Source of the DNA: Candidatus Nanopelagicaceae bacterium
GTDB taxonomy: Bacteria; Actinomycetota; Actinomycetes; Nanopelagicales; Nanopelagicaceae
Reading direction: 5' to 3'
DNA length: 25,825 nt
Assembly (NCBI GenBank): GCA_947489825.1
Contig: CANLFL010000001.1
Span: 1-25,825, forward strand
Shown: positions 6,995 through 22,807 of the stretch, piece after piece
Layout of the letters: each line of letters opens with the position of its first letter
Numbering within the stretch: the first letter of the stretch is position 1
Translations under genes and position numbers: made by a program
Notes under the pieces: model-generated
What the model was told of the DNA's origin: nothing
Databases searched by the model: none
The model's input: the letters and a program-made list of their open reading frames with translations, nothing else

Positions 6995-8893
6995 TCAAAG
7001 CGAATGAGATAGGACATACGGGTCGATACGCATACGAGGAATCGATTTCTTGGCTATCCCCCGCTTCTTTCGATAGGTAACTAGAAAATCAAATAGTTCT
7101 TGACCATGATCTCGGGAGACAGTCAAAATAACCCGCGAATAATCTTCATCTAACCGAGTTGGACCAAGAATGCGGGTGGAGCTTGGAACCCGTCCTTCCT
7201 TAATCGATGAGGTGATACCGCTCAGAAATGTGGGTGTATCAGCGTGTGCAATTTCAAGAACGACCGCATGAACTAGCGGCGGCAACTGAGTCTGCTCGCG
7301 CTCCCTCAACTCTCTTGCAAGAAGTGGAGAGAGATTCCAACGTGATACAGCAGCAACAATTGGGTGCGAATTATCGATAACAACAAGAGCCTTACCATTC
7401 GGTGATAATAGACTCGCGCTCTGCATGATCGCCTCACGTGCGCGTTCCTGGGCGCGAAGATCTAACTGTGAGAAGAGATTATCCCCCTCGAGAATGACAA
7501 CAGCTTGATATCCACCGATTACTGCAGGAGCCATACCGGCCGTAGATAAGACAATGGAGTGTTGATTTTCTATCTCATGAACTGCATTTGTGGCATCGGA
7601 GGAGATCACTGCGAACCCCGGAAATGCTCTTCCGATTTCATGAGCGTAGCGAAGATTTCCTCGCCCTAAGAGATGAGCAGAACTCTTCTTGCACCATTTA
7701 CAACTCCACTCCACACTCGTGAGGTTGCAGAGCGAACAGATAAACCCCTTGTCGGGACCACCAAAATAAATTCGACCCCCACATTCACAGAGTGCAATAT
7801 TGCGACACGAAGCGCATGAAATTGCCTGCGAATAACCCTTGCGAGGAACGAGAAAAAGTACCGAGCCACGTGTGAGCGCACTTCTGATCGGTGAGAAGAT
7901 GCGATCCGGTAATAGTTCTCCCCGGAATTGAGGGTATGAGGTCGCATCAACCTTTGCTCGCTTGCCCTTGAGTGCTATTGCTTCGTTCTCAATCAACAAG
8001 GAAAGCTCAGAAGATGGCGCGTAGCCTGCAAAGGTAAGGTCGATCGCAGCTAGCTGTGAACGCATGATCGCAACATCTCGAACATTCCAACCAGGTGTAC
8101 GTCTTTCATAGTGTGACTCTGATCCCTCACGGAAAATCACAATTGTCTGAAGGTTGGCAACGGGTGCAAATATTGCACCACGAGTACCAATGACTATCTG
8201 CGAAGCACCTGTTGCTACCTGTAAGAAGTTGCTGTATCGAGTCGTTCTAGGAAGAGACGCGTCAAGTACTAAAAACTCCACATTAAGAAGAGTGAGTTCA
8301 TTAGCCAAGGAGTGAACTTCGCGTAACTCTGGAAGAACTACCAGCACTCCCCCCTGGCTAGCTCTCTTTTTGACCCACTCTGCAATCGTATGAAAGGGAT
8401 CTTCGCCGGGAGTAAATAAGTAATAGGAATGCGAAGGGCCCTGGTTTTTTTCTGCCGCTATCCCAGATGGCGAACGTTCTGCACCCACACTCTTTTCAGC
8501 CGAAATCACTCGCGGTGGAATTGCTCCACTCAATATTTCACTCGGTACCGCTCCCCATCTGCGAGCAACGGCAGTGACAAGGGCAATAATCTCATTAGTA
8601 AGCAACGGTGCTGGGGAGGTGACCTTCTCAATAAACTTAAGATTTCCAACGCTCGAGCTATTTACTCTTTCGATGACAAATGCGTCGACTTTCCGGCCAG
8701 AGAAATCGACCAACACCTTTACTCCAATAGAAACTTCTGCGTCCAGGCTCTGCGGAACGAGGTAGTCATAGCTCGGCTCGAGATGCGAGAGACCTGTATC
8801 TACCCAGAGACGTGCGACAGGAAGATGGGCTGAAGCAGTGCTCTCACCACGATCGACTTTCTGTACGCGAAGTCTGAGAGGCGCGGAGGTCAT
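6995..8893 (-). CDS. priA: PriA-like primosomal protein N', helicase motifs lost
   Basis: PriA normally restarts stalled replication forks as a DNA helicase. This 632-residue homologue keeps the N-terminal DNA-binding region (about 25-125) and the zinc-binding module with eight Cys in pairs (about 360, 363, 369, 371, 386, 389, 398, 401). The ATPase motifs are gone. Where Walker A (GxTGSGKT) should be, the sequence reads LFTPGEDPFHT (about 159-169), and the DEEH box is replaced by IFREGSESHY (about 253-262). Actinobacterial PriA proteins are known to lack these motifs, so it probably acts structurally rather than as a helicase. AAAGG lies 6 nt before the ATG. It follows metK with a 22-bp gap. 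Confidence 0.88.
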   Translation of the reverse strand: MTSAPLRLRVQKVDRGESTASAHLPVARLWVDTGLSHLEPSYDYLVPQSLDAEVSIGVKVLVDFSGRKVDAFVIERVNSSSVGNLKFIEKVTSPAPLLTNEIIALVTAVARRWGAVPSEILSGAIPPRVISAEKSVGAERSPSGIAAEKNQGPSHSYYLFTPGEDPFHTIAEWVKKRASQGGVLVVLPELREVHSLANELTLLNVEFLVLDASLPRTTRYSNFLQVATGASQIVIGTRGAIFAPVANLQTIVIFREGSESHYERRTPGWNVRDVAIMRSQLAAIDLTFAGYAPSSELSLLIENEAIALKGKRAKVDATSYPQFRGELLPDRIFSPIRSALTRGSVLFLVPRKGYSQAISCASCRNIALCECGGRIYFGGPDKGFICSLCNLTSVEWSCKWCKKSSAHLLGRGNLRYAHEIGRAFPGFAVISSDATNAVHEIENQHSIVLSTAGMAPAVIGGYQAVVILEGDNLFSQLDLRAQERAREAIMQSASLLSPNGKALVVIDNSHPIVAAVSRWNLSPLLARELREREQTQLPPLVHAVVLEIAHADTPTFLSGITSSIKEGRVPSSTRILGPTRLDEDYSRVILTVSRDHGQELFDFLVTYRKKRGIAKKSIPRMRIDPYVLSHSL

Positions 8894-8915: not shown

Positions 8916-10103
8916 CTAGATCGCCGCGCGGAGTTCATCCACGCGATTGGTTACTTCCCAAGTGAAGTTGGGAAGCTCGCGACCAAAGTGACCATAGGCC
9001 GCTGTTTGTGAGTAGATCGGACGAAGCAAGTTGAGATCTCTAATGATTGCAGCGGGACGTAGATCAAAGATTGTCGTTACTGCGTTCTGAATCTTTGCAA
9101 TTGGGACGGTTTCGGTACCGAAAGTCTCTACAAAAACGCCAACTGGATGCGCCTTTCCAATTGCGTAGGCAACCTGTACTTCGCAACGTCGAGCTAGACC
9201 TGCAGCAACAACGTTTTTGGCTACCCAACGCATTGCATATGCAGCGGAGCGATCAACCTTTGAAGGATCTTTACCGCTGAATGCACCGCCGCCATGGCGT
9301 GCCATTCCACCGTATGTATCAACAATGATCTTTCTCCCAGTGAGGCCAGCATCACCCATCGGTCCGCCAATAACAAAACGACCAGTTGGGTTGATGAGCA
9401 CTCTCAAATCACTCTGAGGTAGGTCCACCTTTGCGAGAACAGGCTTGATGACGTATTCAACAACCTCTGGGGTCAACTTCTTTGCTACATCTACATCTTC
9501 TGCATGTTGGCTGGAGATAACAACGGTATTGATCGCGATTGCTTTGTCACCGTCGTATTCAATAGTTACCTGTGTCTTTCCATCTGGGCGTAGGTAGGCA
9601 AGAGCGCCACTCTTACGTACGGCAGTGAGCTGCTCCGCCAATTGGTGTGCCAGATAGATTGGAAGAGGCATGAGTTCTTTGGTGTCATCGCAGGCATAAC
9701 CAAACATCAGACCCTGATCACCGGCACCCTGCAGATCGAGTGGGTCAACGGCAGAATCAACACGATGCTCAAATGCATCATTGACTCCTTGGGCAATATC
9801 TTGTGACTGTTGTCCAATTGAGATTGAGACGCCACAACTATTGCCATCAAAACCTTTTACTGATGAGTCGTAACCGATTCCTATGACAGTATCGCGGACA
9901 ATTCCCATGACATCTGCATATCCGTCAGTTGTTACTTCACCTGCAACATGCACCTGACCCGTTGTAATAAGAGTCTCGACTGCCACACGACTCTTGGAAT
10001 CCTGTGAGAGGAGCGAGTCAAGGATTGCGTCAGAGATCTGATCTGCAATCTTGTCTGGGTGGCCTTCGGTAACTGATTCTGATGTGAAGAGACGTTTTGA
10101 CAT
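8916..10103 (-). CDS. metK: S-adenosylmethionine synthetase
   Basis: Makes S-adenosylmethionine from methionine and ATP, the methyl donor for RsmB and many other enzymes. The 395-residue protein has the family signatures [18 protein letters not shown] near the N-terminus, [12 protein letters not shown] in the middle, and [19 protein letters not shown] in the C-terminal half. The length is normal. The ATG lies 4 nt after the coaBC stop. The upstream sequence has only weak AGG repeats, but a TAGGTT hexamer ends exactly 6 nt before the ATG, pointing to a leaderless transcript whose promoter overlaps the last codons of coaBC. Confidence 0.98.
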
Positions 10104-10107
10104 TGGT

Positions 10108-11298
10108 CTAACCTAACCTATTAAGGGCCTGATCAAGGAGAAGATCGGCGAGCGAGTCTTTATCGGTGCGATCAACATTGATCTCTTGTACAGATCCTGC
10201 CTTATTTGCAATCAAAATCACACCTTGGTTATGGTCTGATCCGAATATTTCATTAGCTGCAACATCATTGAGAAAGAGTATATCGGCACTCTTGCTCAGA
10301 AGTTTTCTCTTGCCTTCTTCAATATCCAAAGATGTCTCAGCAGCAAACGCGATAACGATCTGACTCTTCTTACGAGAGGCCACTGTTGCAACGATATCTG
10401 GATTAGATGCCAACTCAATCGAGGTGAGAGAGCCCTTCTTTATCTTCGCGTGACTTACCTGCGACGGCTTAGCATCTGCAACAGCTGCACTCATAACTAG
10501 CAGATCGCATTGATCAAATTCTTTCTCTACCTGGCTAAACATTTCTTCCGCCGTGCTTACTCTGATGCAACGGATCCCTGAAGGATCGGGTAATTCACTA
10601 TTTGCAAGAATGAGAGTGACATCAGCTCCGCGGCGGGATGCGGCGCGAGCGATTGAATAACCTTGCTTACCTGAAGAACGATTACCAATATACCGAATTG
10701 GATCTAACGGCTCACGAGTGCCACCTGCTGTAACTAGAACTTTGCGACCCAGCAGATCGTGTACAGGATTAGCGATTGCGTTGAATTCGGCAAGAATACG
10801 TGAAGTCTCAGGGAATCGACCAACGCCTACATCTTTGCCGGTCAGTCGTCCATGGTCGGGCTCCATAACAAAGAATCCACGATTGCGAAGCAGCTGAACA
10901 TTTGCAATTGTTGCTGGATTTGACCACATCGCTGGATGCATTGCAGGAACGATAAGTTTCGGAGCCGTACTTGCAAGAACCGTATTTGTAAGTAAATCAT
11001 CCGCTCTTCCTTGGGCGATGCGAGCGATTAAATCTGCAGTTGCTGGGGCGATGATTATAAAATCACTGGAACTTCCCAATGAGACATGCCTTACTTCGTC
11101 GACTTTCTCCCACACCGTTGTCGTTACTGGGCGGCCAGAGAGAGCTTCCCACGTTGCGCTACCTACGAAGTTAAGGCTGGATGGGGTTGGTATGACTGTG
11201 ACGCCGAAACCTTGATCCTGAAGACGACGAAGTAGGTCGCAGGACTTGTATGCAGCAATCCCACCACCAACGCCAAGGATTACTTCGCGCGTGGACAC
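10108..11298 (-). CDS. coaBC: Bifunctional phosphopantothenoylcysteine synthetase/decarboxylase
   Basis: Two consecutive steps of coenzyme A synthesis in one protein. The N-terminal CoaC flavoprotein domain (about 1-180) has GGIAAYK (12-18), the catalytic His71 in VRHVSLG, and the PAMHPAMW loop. The C-terminal CoaB domain (about 185-396) has [16 protein letters not shown] and NRSSGKQG, with AKIKKG further on. In the CoaC clamp the E. coli type ACGD (with Cys158) appears as TGKD here (within [11 protein letters not shown], about 151-161), so that Cys is absent. The start is a GTG with AGGAAAG 7 nt upstream. It is downstream of rpoZ by 19 bp. Confidence 0.96.
10110..10115 (-). promoter_or_regulatory. 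-10 element (TAGGTT) for leaderless metK-priA
   Basis: TAGGTT (TANNNT) ends 6 nt before the metK ATG. It overlaps the 3' end of coaBC, including part of its stop codon. It lies within a small TAGGTTAGGTTAG repetition, so the match could partly be chance, but the spacing equals that of the other leaderless candidates and no good Shine-Dalgarno sequence exists. Confidence 0.45.
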
Positions 11299-11317: not shown

Positions 11318-11569
11318 TTACTTAACTGCTGGATCGAGATTTTCGATGGTCAAGAGACCTTCGTTGATCTCACGAAGAGCAATTGATAGCGGCTTCTCAT
11401 GAACATGTGTCTCGACCAATGGCCCGACATATTCAAGGAGACCCTCACCAAGTTGTGAATAATATGCGTTGATCTGTCGCGCTCTCTTAGCTGCGTAAAG
11501 CACAAGGCTATATTTCGATCCGCTCTTATCGAGAAGTTCGTCGATTGGTGGATTAGTGATTCCGTCCAT
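11318..11569 (-). CDS. rpoZ: DNA-directed RNA polymerase omega subunit
   Basis: A small subunit that helps RNA polymerase assembly by binding the beta' subunit. The 83-residue protein has the omega pattern [18 protein letters not shown] followed by [12 protein letters not shown] and a C-terminal tail with [13 protein letters not shown]. It is at the short end for the family. The start is well fixed by AGGAGG 5 nt before the ATG. Its position between gmk and coaBC is the common actinobacterial arrangement. Confidence 0.95.
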
Positions 11570-11609: not shown

Positions 11610-12494
11610 TTAAGACCGCTGCGAATGAGCCAATGTTATCAGGCTTGCAACCACATGCTCGACCTGGTCATTGACCAGGATATGGTCGAAAAATGGGGAC
11701 TGAGCCATCTCTTCTTGGGCTAGGGCTAGCCTTTCAGCCCTTCTCTCCGATGAATCAGTGGCTCGTCCCTCTAAGCGCGAAACCAACTCTTCCCATGAAG
11801 GAGGCTCAAGAAAGACGAGAATTGCATCGGGCCAATTCGCCTTCACCTGTTTAGCGCCTTCAATATCAATTTCAAGGAGAACATCCTTACCTTGCGAGAG
11901 AGCATCGAGAACAGGTTGTCTCGGGGTTCCGTAACGTGCGCCGGCGAAAGCTGCCCATTCGAGGAAATAGTGATTTGTAATTGCACGATCGAACTCCTCA
12001 TCGCTCATATAGATGTAATCAACACCATGAGTTTCAGTGTGTCGCGGCTTACGCGTTGTTGCAGAGATACTCACCCAGAAATCATTGTGCGCTCGTACCT
12101 CTTTGGAGACAGTGCTCTTACCTACTCCCCCAGGACCTGAGAGAACGACGAGACTGCCATCATGCTTATTGTCTCGAGGGATGGCGAACTCCTTTACAAG
12201 TGCTCTGCGCTGATGATGTCCGAGACCCATGATTCGCCTCGTACGAGAGATACCAAGTCTATCGAGAATTGCAATCGCTCTTACTTTTCCGACACCTGAA
12301 ATGGATTCAAGTAATTCAGATACACGCATTTTCGAAACCGCTTCATCGTTGTCAGAGAGCTCTATAACTTGATCAACTGTGAGATTGCCGGCTCTGACCT
12401 CTGCCTTTACTTCGGCTCGATGAGAGCGCGAGACTCGTGCTTTTGCTAACGCTGCCGCACGCTCTGCTTCCGTGAGGACGGGCGGTTTTCTCAT
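11610..12494 (-). CDS. gmk: Fusion of actinobacterial integration host factor (mIHF) and guanylate kinase
   Basis: A 294-residue single reading frame with two recognisable parts. Residues 1-103 are a complete mIHF/sIHF nucleoid protein: a PPLT-like start (PPVLTEAERAAAL), KMRVSELLESISGVGKVRA with the helix-turn helix DNA-binding GVGKVRA, RLGISRTRR and GLG, ending at LVKEF where streptomycete sIHF nearly ends. After a short linker (104-113), guanylate kinase (GMP to GDP) follows with Walker A GPGGVGKS (120-127), SATTRKPR, YGTP and LLEIDIEGA. In Mycobacterium and Streptomyces these are two adjacent genes. No stop or usual start codon separates them here, but AAAGGAG lies at 12189-12195. The ATG has no ribosome binding site and a TAGATT -10 element at the leaderless distance. 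Domain calls are secure; the function of the fusion is unknown. Confidence 0.93.
   Translation of the reverse strand: MRKPPVLTEAERAAALAKARVSRSHRAEVKAEVRAGNLTVDQVIELSDNDEAVSKMRVSELLESISGVGKVRAIAILDRLGISRTRRIMGLGHHQRRALVKEFAIPRDNKHDGSLVVLSGPGGVGKSTVSKEVRAHNDFWVSISATTRKPRHTETHGVDYIYMSDEEFDRAITNHYFLEWAAFAGARYGTPRQPVLDALSQGKDVLLEIDIEGAKQVKANWPDAILVFLEPPSWEELVSRLEGRATDSSERRAERLALAQEEMAQSPFFDHILVNDQVEHVVASLITLAHSQRS
12189..12195 (-). promoter_or_regulatory. Embedded Shine-Dalgarno sequence inside the mIHF-Gmk fusion
   Basis: AAAGGAG, a full anti-SD complement, lies across codons 100-102, exactly at the mIHF/Gmk boundary. Six nt downstream is ATC (codon 105), in frame with guanylate kinase; no ATG, GTG or TTG follows in frame before the kinase domain. 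It may be the relic of the ribosome binding site of a formerly separate gmk, or it may support a rare internal start. The coding sequence VKEF alone could also produce it. Confidence 0.4.
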
Positions 12495-12500
12495 GACGAT

Positions 12501-12506
12501 AATCTA
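12501..12506 (-). promoter_or_regulatory. -10 element (TAGATT) for leaderless mIHF-gmk-rpoZ-coaBC
   Basis: TAGATT (TANNNT) ends 6 nt before the ATG of the fusion gene, within the 25-bp gap after pyrF. No Shine-Dalgarno sequence precedes the ATG. It would separate this housekeeping block from the PyrR-controlled operon upstream. Confidence 0.55.
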
Positions 12507-12519
12507 GAGGATCAGGGTG

Positions 12520-13224
12520 CTACTCGTGAATGGAAGCAACGAGTTGGGATGCACGAGAAGCCATTGCAGCCTTACCTTCACTCCAACGAGATGTAATAGG
12601 TCGACCAATCACCAGGAAATTTGCCCCCGCACGCATAGCTTGTGCAGGCGTCATCGTGCGCATCTGATCATCTCCGCCTGCTTCATCGGCCAGGCGAACT
12701 CCTGGAGTAATGATCTCGACAGATTGTGGAATGACTGCGCGAATAGCCTCTATCTCAAGGGGCGAGCAAACAATCGAAGTTGCACCTGCAGCCGTTGCTA
12801 CACGAGCCATCGATACGGCTGTCTCAAGAGCTGGTTTGGCATATCCAAGATCAGCGAGATCAGAATCTGCAAGGGATGTCAGAACAGTGACTGCAGTTAT
12901 CGATGTTGATGTCACTGCAGAGACAGCTGCACTGATCATCGCAGCGCCTCCACTAGCATGCACCGTCAAGAAACGTGGGTGTAGATGTTCAACAACTCCT
13001 ACTGATTTCTTCACAGTGTTTGGAATATCGTGAAGCTTAAGATCAAGGAAGATCGATGCGCCACTCTCTCGGGCGATACTTTCGATCCCTTCGCATCCAA
13101 AGGTGAGAAAGAATTCAAGACCTAATTTATAAATATCGATACTTTCACGAGTGGCATCAATCCACGCGCGGGCTGTATCAAAATCAGAGGTATCGACTGC
13201 AAGGATTATTGGGGAGTGAGCCAT
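12520..13224 (-). CDS. pyrF: Orotidine 5'-phosphate decarboxylase, type I
   Basis: Final step of UMP synthesis: decarboxylates OMP. The 234-residue TIM barrel has ILAVDTSD, IYKLGLEFF, LDLKLHDIPNT (catalytic Asp61, Lys63 and Asp66 of the DxKxxD motif), and TPGVR near the phosphate site, all typical of type I enzymes. Mycobacterium and Streptomyces carry the longer type II PyrF, so the subtype is unexpected. The ATG directly abuts the pyrD stop (TAAATG). It is the last gene of the pyr operon; pyrE is not in the window. Confidence 0.96.
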   Translation of the reverse strand: MAHSPIILAVDTSDFDTARAWIDATRESIDIYKLGLEFFLTFGCEGIESIARESGASIFLDLKLHDIPNTVKKSVGVVEHLHPRFLTVHASGGAAMISAAVSAVTSTSITAVTVLTSLADSDLADLGYAKPALETAVSMARVATAAGATSIVCSPLEIEAIRAVIPQSVEIITPGVRLADEAGGDDQMRTMTPAQAMRAGANFLVIGRPITSRWSEGKAAMASRASQLVASIHE

Positions 13225-14169
13225 TTAATTCTCATCCTCTCGATGAGCATAACCAATGGCATCCTTAACGGAGGCAAATCCCTTTGAGACCAAGAGCGCC
13301 GCAAGTTCGCGCTGAATGCGAGGAATGGCCATTGGGTCACCAAAACTTGCAGTACCTACTGAGACACCTGATGCGCCGGCCAGAATAAGTTCGAGCGCAT
13401 CTCGTCCCGAGACGACACCGCCCATTCCAAGGATTGGAACGTTGGGCATAGCGCTATGTACTTGATAAATCGCACGCACTGCAACAGGTCTTATCGCAGG
13501 TCCTGATAAGCCACCAGTTTTACCGCCAAGGTGTGGCTTCATCGTCTCAATATTAATTACCATTCCAAGCACAGTATTAATCAGCGCCAATCCATCTGCG
13601 CCGGCATCTACAACAGCCGAGGCGATGCTGGTGATATCTGTGACGTCGGGGGTCAGCTTTGCAATGATCGGTATCTCGCCTCCGATAATTTTGCGCACAC
13701 CATCTATTGCGCGAGCAGCGGTATCTCGCTCGCAGGCGAAGACCATTCCACGATTTTCAACATTGGGACATGAAATATTTACTTCCAGTGCGCTAATGCC
13801 TTGTACAGAGCGAATCTTTCGGGCCAACATCGCGTACTCATCTGTAGTCTCACCAGCGATTGAAACTATTACGCGGGCACCTTTTTCCAATAGCCATGGA
13901 ACATCCTGCGCTAAAAATTGATCGATTCCTGGTCCTTGAAGACCGATCGAATTAAGCATTCCTGAAGGTGTTTCCGCCATGCGCGGTGTGACACGGCCGT
14001 GCCTAGCTTTATTCATCACCGATTTAGTGACAACTGCACCTATATCGCGGAGATCGAAGAACTGCGAAAGTTCTTTACCCGAACTTGCACAACCGCTCGC
14101 AGTAAAAATCGGTGCCGGAAACCAGGCATTTCCTATCGTTGTGGAGTAATCCAGCGATGCCTCACTCAT
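13225..14169 (-). CDS. pyrD: Dihydroorotate dehydrogenase, class 1B catalytic subunit
   Basis: Oxidises dihydroorotate to orotate with FMN, passing electrons to PyrK and then NAD+. Class 1B is shown by catalytic Cys134 in NISCPNV (class 2 enzymes have Ser), the lack of an N-terminal membrane helix, and the adjacent pyrK. TASGC and NSIGLQGPG lie early, and GMGGV and GTASF late. I start at the ATG at 14169, giving 314 residues: it overlaps the pyrK stop as ATGA, and MSEASLDYSTTI is a sensible N-terminus. A longer reading from 14208 would overlap pyrK by 43 bp and add 13 unlikely residues. Confidence 0.95.
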   Translation of the reverse strand: MSEASLDYSTTIGNAWFPAPIFTASGCASSGKELSQFFDLRDIGAVVTKSVMNKARHGRVTPRMAETPSGMLNSIGLQGPGIDQFLAQDVPWLLEKGARVIVSIAGETTDEYAMLARKIRSVQGISALEVNISCPNVENRGMVFACERDTAARAIDGVRKIIGGEIPIIAKLTPDVTDITSIASAVVDAGADGLALINTVLGMVINIETMKPHLGGKTGGLSGPAIRPVAVRAIYQVHSAMPNVPILGMGGVVSGRDALELILAGASGVSVGTASFGDPMAIPRIQRELAALLVSKGFASVKDAIGYAHREDEN

Positions 14170-15017
14170 TGAATACCTACGGGTGGAGTTTTTCCAACCA
14201 GGTCCCACGCAACCGAACTTCCGTCCATTACCGGGCCATCAATACAGGAACGGAGCATTGAAATCGAACCGTCTTCATTCTTTACAGGTAGAACACACGT
14301 CATACAGATTCCAATTCCACATGCCATGGCTTCTTCTACTGCACACTGGTGTACGACATCCGTGCCATCCGTAATGTCAGATATCGCTCGCAACATAGAC
14401 ATGGGACCACAAGAGTAAATAACATCGACCGAGCCTTGAGTTATGAGTTCGCGAATCGGTGCGGTAACTCTGCCATGTTCGCCCATTGAGCCATCTTCTG
14501 TAAAGATCTTTAACGTTGATGCACTTCGCTTACCCTCTAAAGGAGCGTAGATCTTCGAACCTGTACTTGCGCCTAAGAGCATATCGACCTTGCATCCACG
14601 AGCCTTGAGAACTTCTGCCAATCCGAAGAGTGGTGCTGATCCGTATCCGCCGCCAACAAGAAGGGCGTTGACAGGACTTGTAGGTATTCCAAAAGCTTTA
14701 CCAAGGGGTGCGACAATATCTAACTCAGCACCTTCTTCTTGCGCACAGAGCCATTTAGATCCAGAGCCAAAGGGAGCGATGATTAACTCCATTGCTCCAC
14801 CAGATGCGCTTCCGTGGGTGATCCGAGAGATCGCAAATGCCCTTCGCAGAATCATCTTCGAAACATCGCCTCCGACTGAAATGGCAACAAAGTTTCCTGG
14901 ACGACAGACTGAGGCAAGATCTCCAATAGCAAGAAGAAGCTGGTGGTAGGCCCCTACTCGCTTGTTACTTAAAATTGTGGCGTTAAGTTGAGCTGCGCTC
15001 TTATTAATACTGCTCAT
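14166..15017 (-). CDS. pyrK: Dihydroorotate dehydrogenase electron transfer subunit
   Basis: Partner of class 1B PyrD, carrying electrons from FMN through a [2Fe-2S] cluster and FAD to NAD+. In 283 residues there is a ferredoxin-reductase-like FAD domain (RRAFAISRI), an NAD-binding domain (LLVGGGYGSAPLFGLA) and a C-terminal cluster motif Cys233-x4-Cys238-x2-Cys241-x15-Cys257. The start at 15017 overlaps the carB stop by one base (TAATG). A longer reading from 15032 is less likely because it enters carB further. It overlaps pyrD by 4 bp, as expected for subunits of one heterotetramer. Confidence 0.95.
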   Translation of the reverse strand: MSSINKSAAQLNATILSNKRVGAYHQLLLAIGDLASVCRPGNFVAISVGGDVSKMILRRAFAISRITHGSASGGAMELIIAPFGSGSKWLCAQEEGAELDIVAPLGKAFGIPTSPVNALLVGGGYGSAPLFGLAEVLKARGCKVDMLLGASTGSKIYAPLEGKRSASTLKIFTEDGSMGEHGRVTAPIRELITQGSVDVIYSCGPMSMLRAISDITDGTDVVHQCAVEEAMACGIGICMTCVLPVKNEDGSISMLRSCIDGPVMDGSSVAWDLVGKTPPVGIQ

Positions 15018-22217: not shown

Positions 22218-22235
22218 CTTAAAGGATGCGGCGAA

Positions 22236-22241
22236 AGGATA
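22236..22241 (-). promoter_or_regulatory. Candidate -10 element (TATCCT) of the pyr operon
   Basis: TATCCT (TANNNT) would start transcription near 22227-22229, giving a leader of about 43 nt that contains the whole PyrR-binding hairpin. A weak TTCACA lies 19 bp upstream, and a perfect inverted repeat (22246-22262) fills the spacer. No experimental evidence is available from sequence alone. Confidence 0.4.
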
Positions 22242-22245
22242 CCAC

Positions 22246-22262
22246 CAGAGTCCCGAACTCTG
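22246..22262. repeat. Perfect 6-bp inverted repeat in the bldD-pyrR intergenic region
   Basis: CAGAGT and ACTCTG are separated by CCCGA. The repeat lies between the presumed -35 and -10 of the pyr promoter and about 48 bp upstream of the bldD start, a natural place for an operator. One arm reads ACTCTGTG, which agrees with the ACnC(A/T)GnG core of the Streptomyces BldD box but not with its flanking T and A positions. Confidence 0.4.
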
Positions 22263-22296
22263 TGAATATCTCCGTCGTTGAGCGAGTCATCCTCTC

Positions 22297-22302
22297 TACC
22301 CT
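22297..22302 (+). promoter_or_regulatory. Candidate -10 element (TACCCT) for bldD
   Basis: TACCCT (TANNNT) ends 7 nt before the ATG at 22310. No Shine-Dalgarno sequence precedes that ATG, so a leaderless start is plausible, though the spacing is one base longer than at the other sites. Confidence 0.35.
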
Positions 22303-22309
22303 GCACCTC

Positions 22310-22807
22310 ATGCTTACTCACGAGATACGAGAGATTCAAATGCGAATACGTGCGGCTAGGTTAGCCCTCGGGTGGAGTTTGGCCGATTTCGAACTCCACT
22401 CCGCTGGTGCAATCACCGCTGTTGCTATGGGTTCTTATGAGAGGGGCACACGAACTCTCTCCATCACGAAGTTGCTAAAAATCTGTGACATCTTTCAGAT
22501 CTCACTCATCCACATTTTGGCACCAACGCAAGAGTTAACTGTCGCCGATTCACTTGGCAGACATATTTATGATCTTCGCGCTCTTCAAGGGCTACCCCTT
22601 AGCGCTGAAAAAACACATCTGCTCGCATATATCCACCAAATCATTAGAGAACGTGGTGATTGGAAAGGCGCAGTGGTCTCACTACGTGCAACTGATATCC
22701 AAAACCTAGGACTGATCTTCTCGTCAAGCCAGGAGATTGAGAACCATAACTATCAGGGGTGGTTGGTAGCGCAAGGAATATCTCTGCAGAAAAGACTAGA
22801 GAGATAA
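22310..22807 (+). CDS. bldD: BldD-family transcriptional regulator with intact c-di-GMP motif
   Basis: A homologue of Streptomyces BldD, the master developmental repressor that dimerises through a c-di-GMP tetramer. The N-terminal helix-turn-helix (about 10-66) has MRIRAARLALGWSL and VAMGSYERGTRTLSI, close to BldD. In the C-terminal domain, RGD (115-117) plus eight residues plus RATD (126-129) is a complete RXD-X8-RXXD ligand signature, offset by one residue from S. coelicolor BldD as I recall it. I start at the ATG at 22310 (165 residues; BldD has 167). A longer reading from 22226 would add 28 residues with no counterpart and run through the pyr promoter. Its position between pyrR and nusB matches Streptomyces. 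It overlaps nusB tail to tail by 12 bp. Confidence 0.88.
   Translation: MLTHEIREIQMRIRAARLALGWSLADFELHSAGAITAVAMGSYERGTRTLSITKLLKICDIFQISLIHILAPTQELTVADSLGRHIYDLRALQGLPLSAEKTHLLAYIHQIIRERGDWKGAVVSLRATDIQNLGLIFSSSQEIENHNYQGWLVAQGISLQKRLER

Follow-up and report, generated by a model that had tools for sequence, protein, structure and literature searches.

An mIHF domain joined in frame to guanylate kinase in Nanopelagicales and in some related bacteria

The nucleoid protein mIHF is described as binding and bending DNA without sequence specificity (PMC3724605) and is reported to be essential in M. tuberculosis and among its most abundant proteins (PMC6155035). According to the latter source, deletion of mIHF in M. 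tuberculosis was polar and required complementation with gmk and rpoZ in trans. A table for Streptomyces sp. 135 lists mIHF and gmk as separate neighbours in the same order as that found here (PMC8365161).

In the window, by which we mean the whole 25,825-nucleotide stretch that was analysed, mIHF and gmk, the latter encoding guanylate kinase (Gmk), an essential enzyme in the supply of guanine nucleotides, are a single gene. The minus strand of 11610-12494 is one open frame encoding 294 aa, from an ATG at 12494 to a TAA at 11610-11612, and the plus strand of the same interval is packed with stops. The parts of the gene are the following.

11610 to 12494, minus strand: mIHF-guanylate kinase fusion gene, 294 codons plus TAA, both family models above their curated cut-offs
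12186 to 12494, minus strand: mIHF domain with its H2TH region, codons 1-103 (NF041260, PF22525, relatives 4itq and 6tob)
12162 to 12185, minus strand: linker, codons 104-111 (8 codons; from clade linker lengths and AlphaFold pLDDT)
11613 to 12158, minus strand: guanylate kinase domain, codons 113-294 (TIGR03263 over 113-288; Foldseek match 1znw)
12111 to 12137, minus strand: P-loop GPGGVGKST, codons 120-128 (G120, P121, V124, G125, K126 and T128 invariant in 72 aligned fusions)
12189 to 12194, minus strand: AAGGAG, codons 101-102, within the final codons of mIHF and Shine-Dalgarno-like (6-nt match in the sequence)
12180 to 12182, minus strand: ATC, codon 105, where clade B has ATG, GTG or TTG; from its sequence at most a near-cognate start

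Scored against curated NCBI models, residues 5-103 reach 116.3 bits with actino_IHF (NF041260, cut-off 60) and residues 113-288 reach 208.5 bits with guanylate kinase (TIGR03263, cut-off 160.45), and Pfam agrees, placing H2TH_5 (PF22525) at 34-103 and Guanylate_kin at 115-287. Residues 5-104 match the solved mIHF relatives 4itq (E 6.4e-22) and 6tob (E 2.1e-20) and the second half matches many solved guanylate kinases, the best Foldseek match being M. tuberculosis guanylate kinase 1znw (E 1.2e-20, 43% identity). Only kinases appear among the 50 Foldseek matches listed, so the identity of the mIHF half rests on sequence and not on Foldseek. The NCBI mIHF model is typed 'equivalog_domain' and is therefore expected within longer proteins; here the family member is a domain of a 294-codon frame, not a free-standing protein of about 105 aa. 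The earlier note on this DNA, which had claimed a full mIHF (residues 1-103) and a full guanylate kinase (residues 114-294) with no stop and no usual start between them, was right in this and in its coordinates, the strand that it left unstated being minus: no in-frame ATG, GTG or TTG occurs between codon 89 (an ATG within mIHF) and codon 141 (a GTG within the kinase). The fusion's own ATG has no Shine-Dalgarno-like site upstream (12495-12534), the AAGGAG lying instead at the domain junction.

AlphaFold predicts two confident domains (mean pLDDT 89.3), with the mIHF helices of high confidence and with linker residues 105-109 below a pLDDT of 50. As the pTM is only 0.60, no fixed arrangement of the domains is predicted and a fixed interface, which was also considered, is unsupported; the predicted layout is of beads on a string with a loose linker.

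The operon order pyrD-pyrF-[mIHF-gmk]-rpoZ-coaBC-metK was confirmed in the window, each neighbour scoring above the cut-off of its family, in agreement with the order from mIHF to coaBC that the earlier note had given.

13225 to 14208, minus strand: pyrD (NF005574, 352.2 bits, cut-off 269)
12520 to 13224, minus strand: pyrF, upstream neighbour, 25 nt from the fusion (NF001273, 207.9 bits, cut-off 193)
11318 to 11569, minus strand: rpoZ, downstream neighbour (TIGR00690, 79.9 bits, cut-off 23.6)
10108 to 11298, minus strand: coaBC (TIGR00521, 372.9 bits, cut-off 219.7)
8916 to 10103, minus strand: metK (TIGR01034, 554.5 bits, cut-off 309.4)

A search for a promoter between pyrF and the fusion gave one weak minus-strand match, inside the gene, which is fewer than in shuffled sequences, and no RNA family scored above its gathering score in the window. 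Elsewhere in the window, 22226-22804 on the plus strand encodes a BldD-like regulator (NF050110, 79.3 bits, far below the cut-off of 250), divergent from pyrimidine genes and from a neighbour that we take, from its sequence, to be pyrR. On the minus strand, 6995-8893 encodes a 632-aa relative of PriA that falls below all NCBIfam PriA cut-offs (best 355 bits, cut-off 812) and which we presume may be of the helicase-dead type of actinobacteria.

The fusion is not confined to this contig. A search of 5.8 billion proteins gave 6989 scored homologues, of which the 120 best all carry both Pfam domains, 117 of these 120 being 289-296 aa long; where the source names them, these best homologues are called 'guanylate kinase'. 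In the order Nanopelagicales (freshwater acI lineage, the order of genome G004), 271 of 296 genomes have a match and 25 have none. Of the 271, 203 were taken to DNA level (the other 68 include broken contigs, e.g. G010, G017, G021, G083 and G120), and these comprise 167 genomes with both parts fused in one open frame, several of them one contig of genome size, and 36 with separate neighbouring genes; G424, in which mIHF is absent from the stretch examined, was left out of the counts. Four complete acI genomes have been reported (Kang et al. 2017, PMC5301498), and by our assignment the gene would be fused in those that we take as acI-A1, A4 and A7 (G138, G139, G140) and separate in that taken as acI-C1 (G041). 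In an even class-wide sample at least 384 of 394 genomes have a match. Outside the order 21 more fusions were found at DNA level (2 in clade D, 19 in clade E), and at the remaining 31 loci examined mIHF and gmk are separate neighbours. Clade E includes Microbacterium, as G515 encodes a protein with 100% identity to 'guanylate kinase [Microbacterium sp. SLBN-146]', and the Microbacterium genomes with the fusion are of 3-4 Mb and so not small. Some database labels seem wrong: three relatives with genomes of 1.0-1.4 Mb (L001, L004, L005) are labelled Streptomycetaceae or Bifidobacterium breve, and a Microbacterium-like clade-E match (P0243) is labelled Planococcus, all of which are probable mislabels.

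The search for the combined architecture and its mapping on a tree, both proposed in the earlier note, thus reveal a fusion that is widespread in the order and present in Microbacterium, and not a one-off. Its remark that no description was known fared in two ways, standing for the open-licence literature, where titles and abstract openings gave no description of the fusion, and falling for the databases, which already hold hundreds of such proteins as 'guanylate kinase'. Each half is a known family and the architecture is already deposited, unnamed as a fusion; for annotation this means that the integration host factor of the cell is part of many proteins whose only name is 'guanylate kinase'.

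On a first tree (153 rows, Gmk with five neighbouring proteins) it takes 5 changes to account for the fused state, 4 of them forced by strongly supported branches, and the sisters of clade E and the sister of clade D are genomes with separate genes. On a second tree (54 rows) clade A, to which the window belongs, clade B and clade C each come out as a single clade. A topology that unites the three is rejected with a p-AU of 0.013, to be read with care as the clades were named once the first tree had been seen. Clades A and B stand together in the best second tree with a support of 7, and they may represent one fusion or two. The linkers also vary in length: 52 of the 86 rows of clade A, the window among them, and 75 of the 77 clade-B genomes have one of 24 nt, compared to 57-60 nt in clade C, 39 and 60 nt in clade D and 21-36 nt in clade E. 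Because all outer relatives have separate genes, the data are read most simply as repeated fusion with four or more origins, although some of the changes of state may be fissions.

In 22 genomes searched (21 fused, one separate) a single Gmk scored above cut-off in each, and so did a single mIHF in the separate genome and in all but one of the 21 fused ones, the exception being G634 of clade E at 56.3 bits against 60. Second copies in these 22 genomes were seen only below threshold (mIHF at 13.5-19.9 bits in 9 genomes, Gmk at 22 bits or less), so in the fused relatives both functions must be carried by the fused chain. Among 72 fusions of clades A, B and E, the Gmk residues G120, K126, R148, R151, E179, Y188, E208, R240, R244 and R255, which we take to be P-loop, GMP-binding and lid residues, are invariant, as are R23, R26, K30, G69, R87, G90, G92 and Q95 of mIHF. 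As the fused gene is the only one of its kinase family above cut-off in all 21 fused relatives, GMP kinase activity is expected, and the window's chain is expected to phosphorylate GMP. The mIHF domain may bind and bend DNA, with which its positive charge and its predicted fold are in keeping.

The junction itself differs between clades, and in clade B, the sister clade of the window's (of which L073, from G124, is an example), a start codon appears to be protected there. Among the first 31 genes of clade B, 26 have Leu or Val at the second linker codon, and 21 of these 26 use TTG or GTG, where 5.9 are expected from the gene's own synonymous codon use; a prediction set beforehand for 46 held-out genomes gave 31 of 40 against 8.9 expected, making 52 of 66 against 14.7 over the 77 genomes combined. 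No other column between -12 and +9 comes near this codon in start-codon excess, and a conserved Leu five codons upstream has none (11/77, 17.3 expected). In 15 more clade-B genomes an ATG stands one codon later, so that a start lies within a four-codon interval in 30/31 genomes of the first set and 46/46 of the held-out set, compared to means of 21.4 and 31.0 and maxima of 28 and 38 in 1000 synonymous shuffles. Of the 76 clade-B starts, 78% have a Shine-Dalgarno match of at least 4 nt before them, the share being 20% among 1063 other start-like codons in frame; a conserved Glu codon accounts for part of this signal. Clade-B genomes are related and these counts are hence not independent, but 31 of the 46 held-out genomes are less than 85% identical to their nearest first-set member, and in this subset a start lies in the interval in 31/31 and 18 of 26 Leu/Val codons are start-coded. 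The conserved start and Shine-Dalgarno-like site suggest that clade B probably makes the fusion plus a free kinase, as a dual-product gene.

Our preferred reading, to which we give a probability of about 0.68, is that the window encodes one bifunctional chain of about 32 kDa, in which a DNA-binding mIHF is followed by about 8 flexible residues and a working guanylate kinase. Such a gene would have arisen from two adjoining, co-transcribed genes through loss of the stop codon that separated them; the first domain would hold DNA and the second would make GDP. In clade B the internal start would probably still yield free kinase as well, whereas the lineage of the window has lost its start codon at the junction, so that the GMP kinase would be carried on the nucleoid protein and the two made one to one. 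This may bring GDP/GTP production to the chromosome or to RNA polymerase.

A serious rival, which we rate at somewhat below even odds, is that the fusion is neutral: in a compact genome the stop codon was lost, the domains act independently and there is no benefit beyond shared expression. That would fit the short flexible linker with no confidently predicted interface, the apparent retention of free kinase in parallel in clade B and the closeness of the genes where they are separate, which lie within 10 nt of each other in 26 of the 36 such relatives in the order. Two other pairs in the operon abut just as tightly, however. In sampled loci of the order mIHF-gmk is fused in 64/100 (which is not a population share, as this first set was chosen to include both states), and the other pairs are never fused: pyrD-pyrF 0/96, pyrF-mIHF 0/99, gmk-rpoZ 0/99, rpoZ-coaBC 0/98 and coaBC-metK 0/91. 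This is despite pyrD-pyrF and coaBC-metK lying 10 nt or less apart in 83/96 and 88/91 loci, and despite pyrF-mIHF, gmk-rpoZ and rpoZ-coaBC being in frame with only a stop between them in 28, 33 and 32 loci respectively. Outside the order the other five pairs are likewise fused in 0/9, 0/9, 0/52, 0/43 and 0/42 (at clade-E loci such as L151 of G515, no coaBC match lies between rpoZ and metK in 10 of 19). Closeness alone therefore does not explain the fusion, and its repeated origin, including in the 3-4 Mb genomes of Microbacterium, and the loss of the internal start in clade A also speak against neutrality; even so, some pairs tolerate joining better than others, and mIHF-gmk may be a pair that merely tolerates it.

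More tentatively, and at odds clearly less than even, the fusion may be a Rosetta-stone sign of a partnership between mIHF and Gmk, either with Gmk acting on the nucleoid or with nucleotide state or oligomerisation of the enzyme tuning the packing by mIHF, and with clade B as an intermediate. That mIHF-gmk alone in the operon is repeatedly fused is compatible with a kinase located on the chromosome, and is no demonstration of it; the repeated joining in related bacteria hints that mIHF and guanylate kinase belong together. If the link between nucleoid protein and guanylate supply were direct, nucleotide state would have a path by which to influence chromosome structure and transcription. Since there are several independent fusions, some of them in culturable Microbacterium, the question is testable, and clade B may represent a naturally occurring stage on the way from two genes to a single fused protein.

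It is unlikely that the window's organism also, or mainly, makes a separate Gmk, by starting at ATC codon 105 or ATG codon 89 or by cutting the chain. This would gain from the canonical start found at the same place in 76/77 clade-B genomes (within the four-codon interval), from the ATG or GTG that clade C has 42 nt into its linker in 5/5 genomes (with no Shine-Dalgarno-like site), and from the lack of such a site before the fusion's own ATG. In the subclade of the window, moreover, ATC or ATT occupies the place of codon 105 in 6/6 members, with a Shine-Dalgarno match of 6-7 nt (AAGGAG, at a spacing of 6 nt) kept in 5/6, and the AAGGAG six nt before the ATC makes weak internal initiation possible in the window, the codon being perhaps a relic or a weak start. 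ATC is a very poor start codon, however, most of the relatives shown lack a start codon at position 89, no ATG, GTG or TTG follows codon 89 before codon 141, and AAG GAG also encodes a conserved K-E, so that selection on the protein may be what keeps the site. Clade A as a whole has no excess of starts in the four-codon interval (8/28 and 22/58, null 7.8 and 18.7), and by our reading 14 of its 28 first-set genomes have at codons 103-106 neither a start codon nor a near-cognate codon behind AAGGAG. Leu/Val codons at the clade-B start place are start codons in 6 of 11 clade-A cases (2.1 expected), and Met stands at the first linker codon in 21 clade-A genomes. In clades D and E a start lies in the interval in 0/2 and 1/19. 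A conserved junction start, the mark of a dual-product gene, is thus found in clade B and not in the window's gene, which, having no canonical internal start at the junction, probably makes the fused chain alone.

We regard it as very improbable that the mIHF half is now no more than a degenerate N-terminal extension of the kinase. It does score low as a domain in clades B to E, and in clade E, where G634 falls just short of the cut-off, R86 is lost in 19/19 and this half diverges faster than separate mIHFs (identity 0.492 at a Gmk identity of 0.687, compared to 0.618 at 0.591 for separate genes). Against decay, the family cut-off is passed in all but that one of the fused genomes searched, the window's mIHF helices are confidently predicted, and within the order the divergence of mIHF relative to Gmk is no faster in fused genes (0.544 and 0.466 at Gmk identities of 0.659 and 0.612) than in separate ones (0.482 at 0.592). 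Of 23 mIHF columns that are at least 90% conserved in 67 separate mIHFs, the window keeps all those listed except P66, which is S in the window and which clade A keeps in 32%. The net charge of the domain has also stayed positive, at +7 in the window and with means of +8.1 to +9.7 in fused groups, compared to +7.4 and +8.9 in separate ones.

An assembly or sequencing artefact, in favour of which there is nothing, is ruled out by independent genomes, as the same open frame, free of the frameshift or lost stop codon for which the earlier note had advised a check, recurs in separately assembled genomes, 167 within the order and 21 beyond it.

Compared to described systems, the first domain of the single chain that we favour resembles mIHF of M. 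tuberculosis (6tob) and sIHF of S. coelicolor (SCO1480, 4itq) in being a whole, basic, helical domain of the H2TH type encoded just before gmk. Those proteins are described as separate and of about 105-107 aa (PMC3724605, PMC4255298), whereas here the domain is the N-terminal third of a 294-aa chain. The second domain is a full guanylate kinase of the TIGR03263 type with invariant active-site residues, like 1znw (M. tuberculosis Rv1389), but unlike 1znw the N-terminus of the chain carries mIHF and not the start of the kinase. The acI-C1-type genome G041 and Streptomyces have the same gene order up to metK with mIHF and gmk separate, and differ from the window in the stop codon between the two genes and, in G041, in having the kinase in another frame. 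A further counterpart is the 'guanylate kinase' of Microbacterium, about 298 aa long (as in Microbacterium sp. SLBN-146 and M. terrae), which has the same two domains in the same order and differs in its independent origin on the tree, a linker of 21-36 nt, no constraint for a start at the junction and a more diverged mIHF half. What is new here with respect to all of these is the start codon that clade B appears to protect at the fusion junction.
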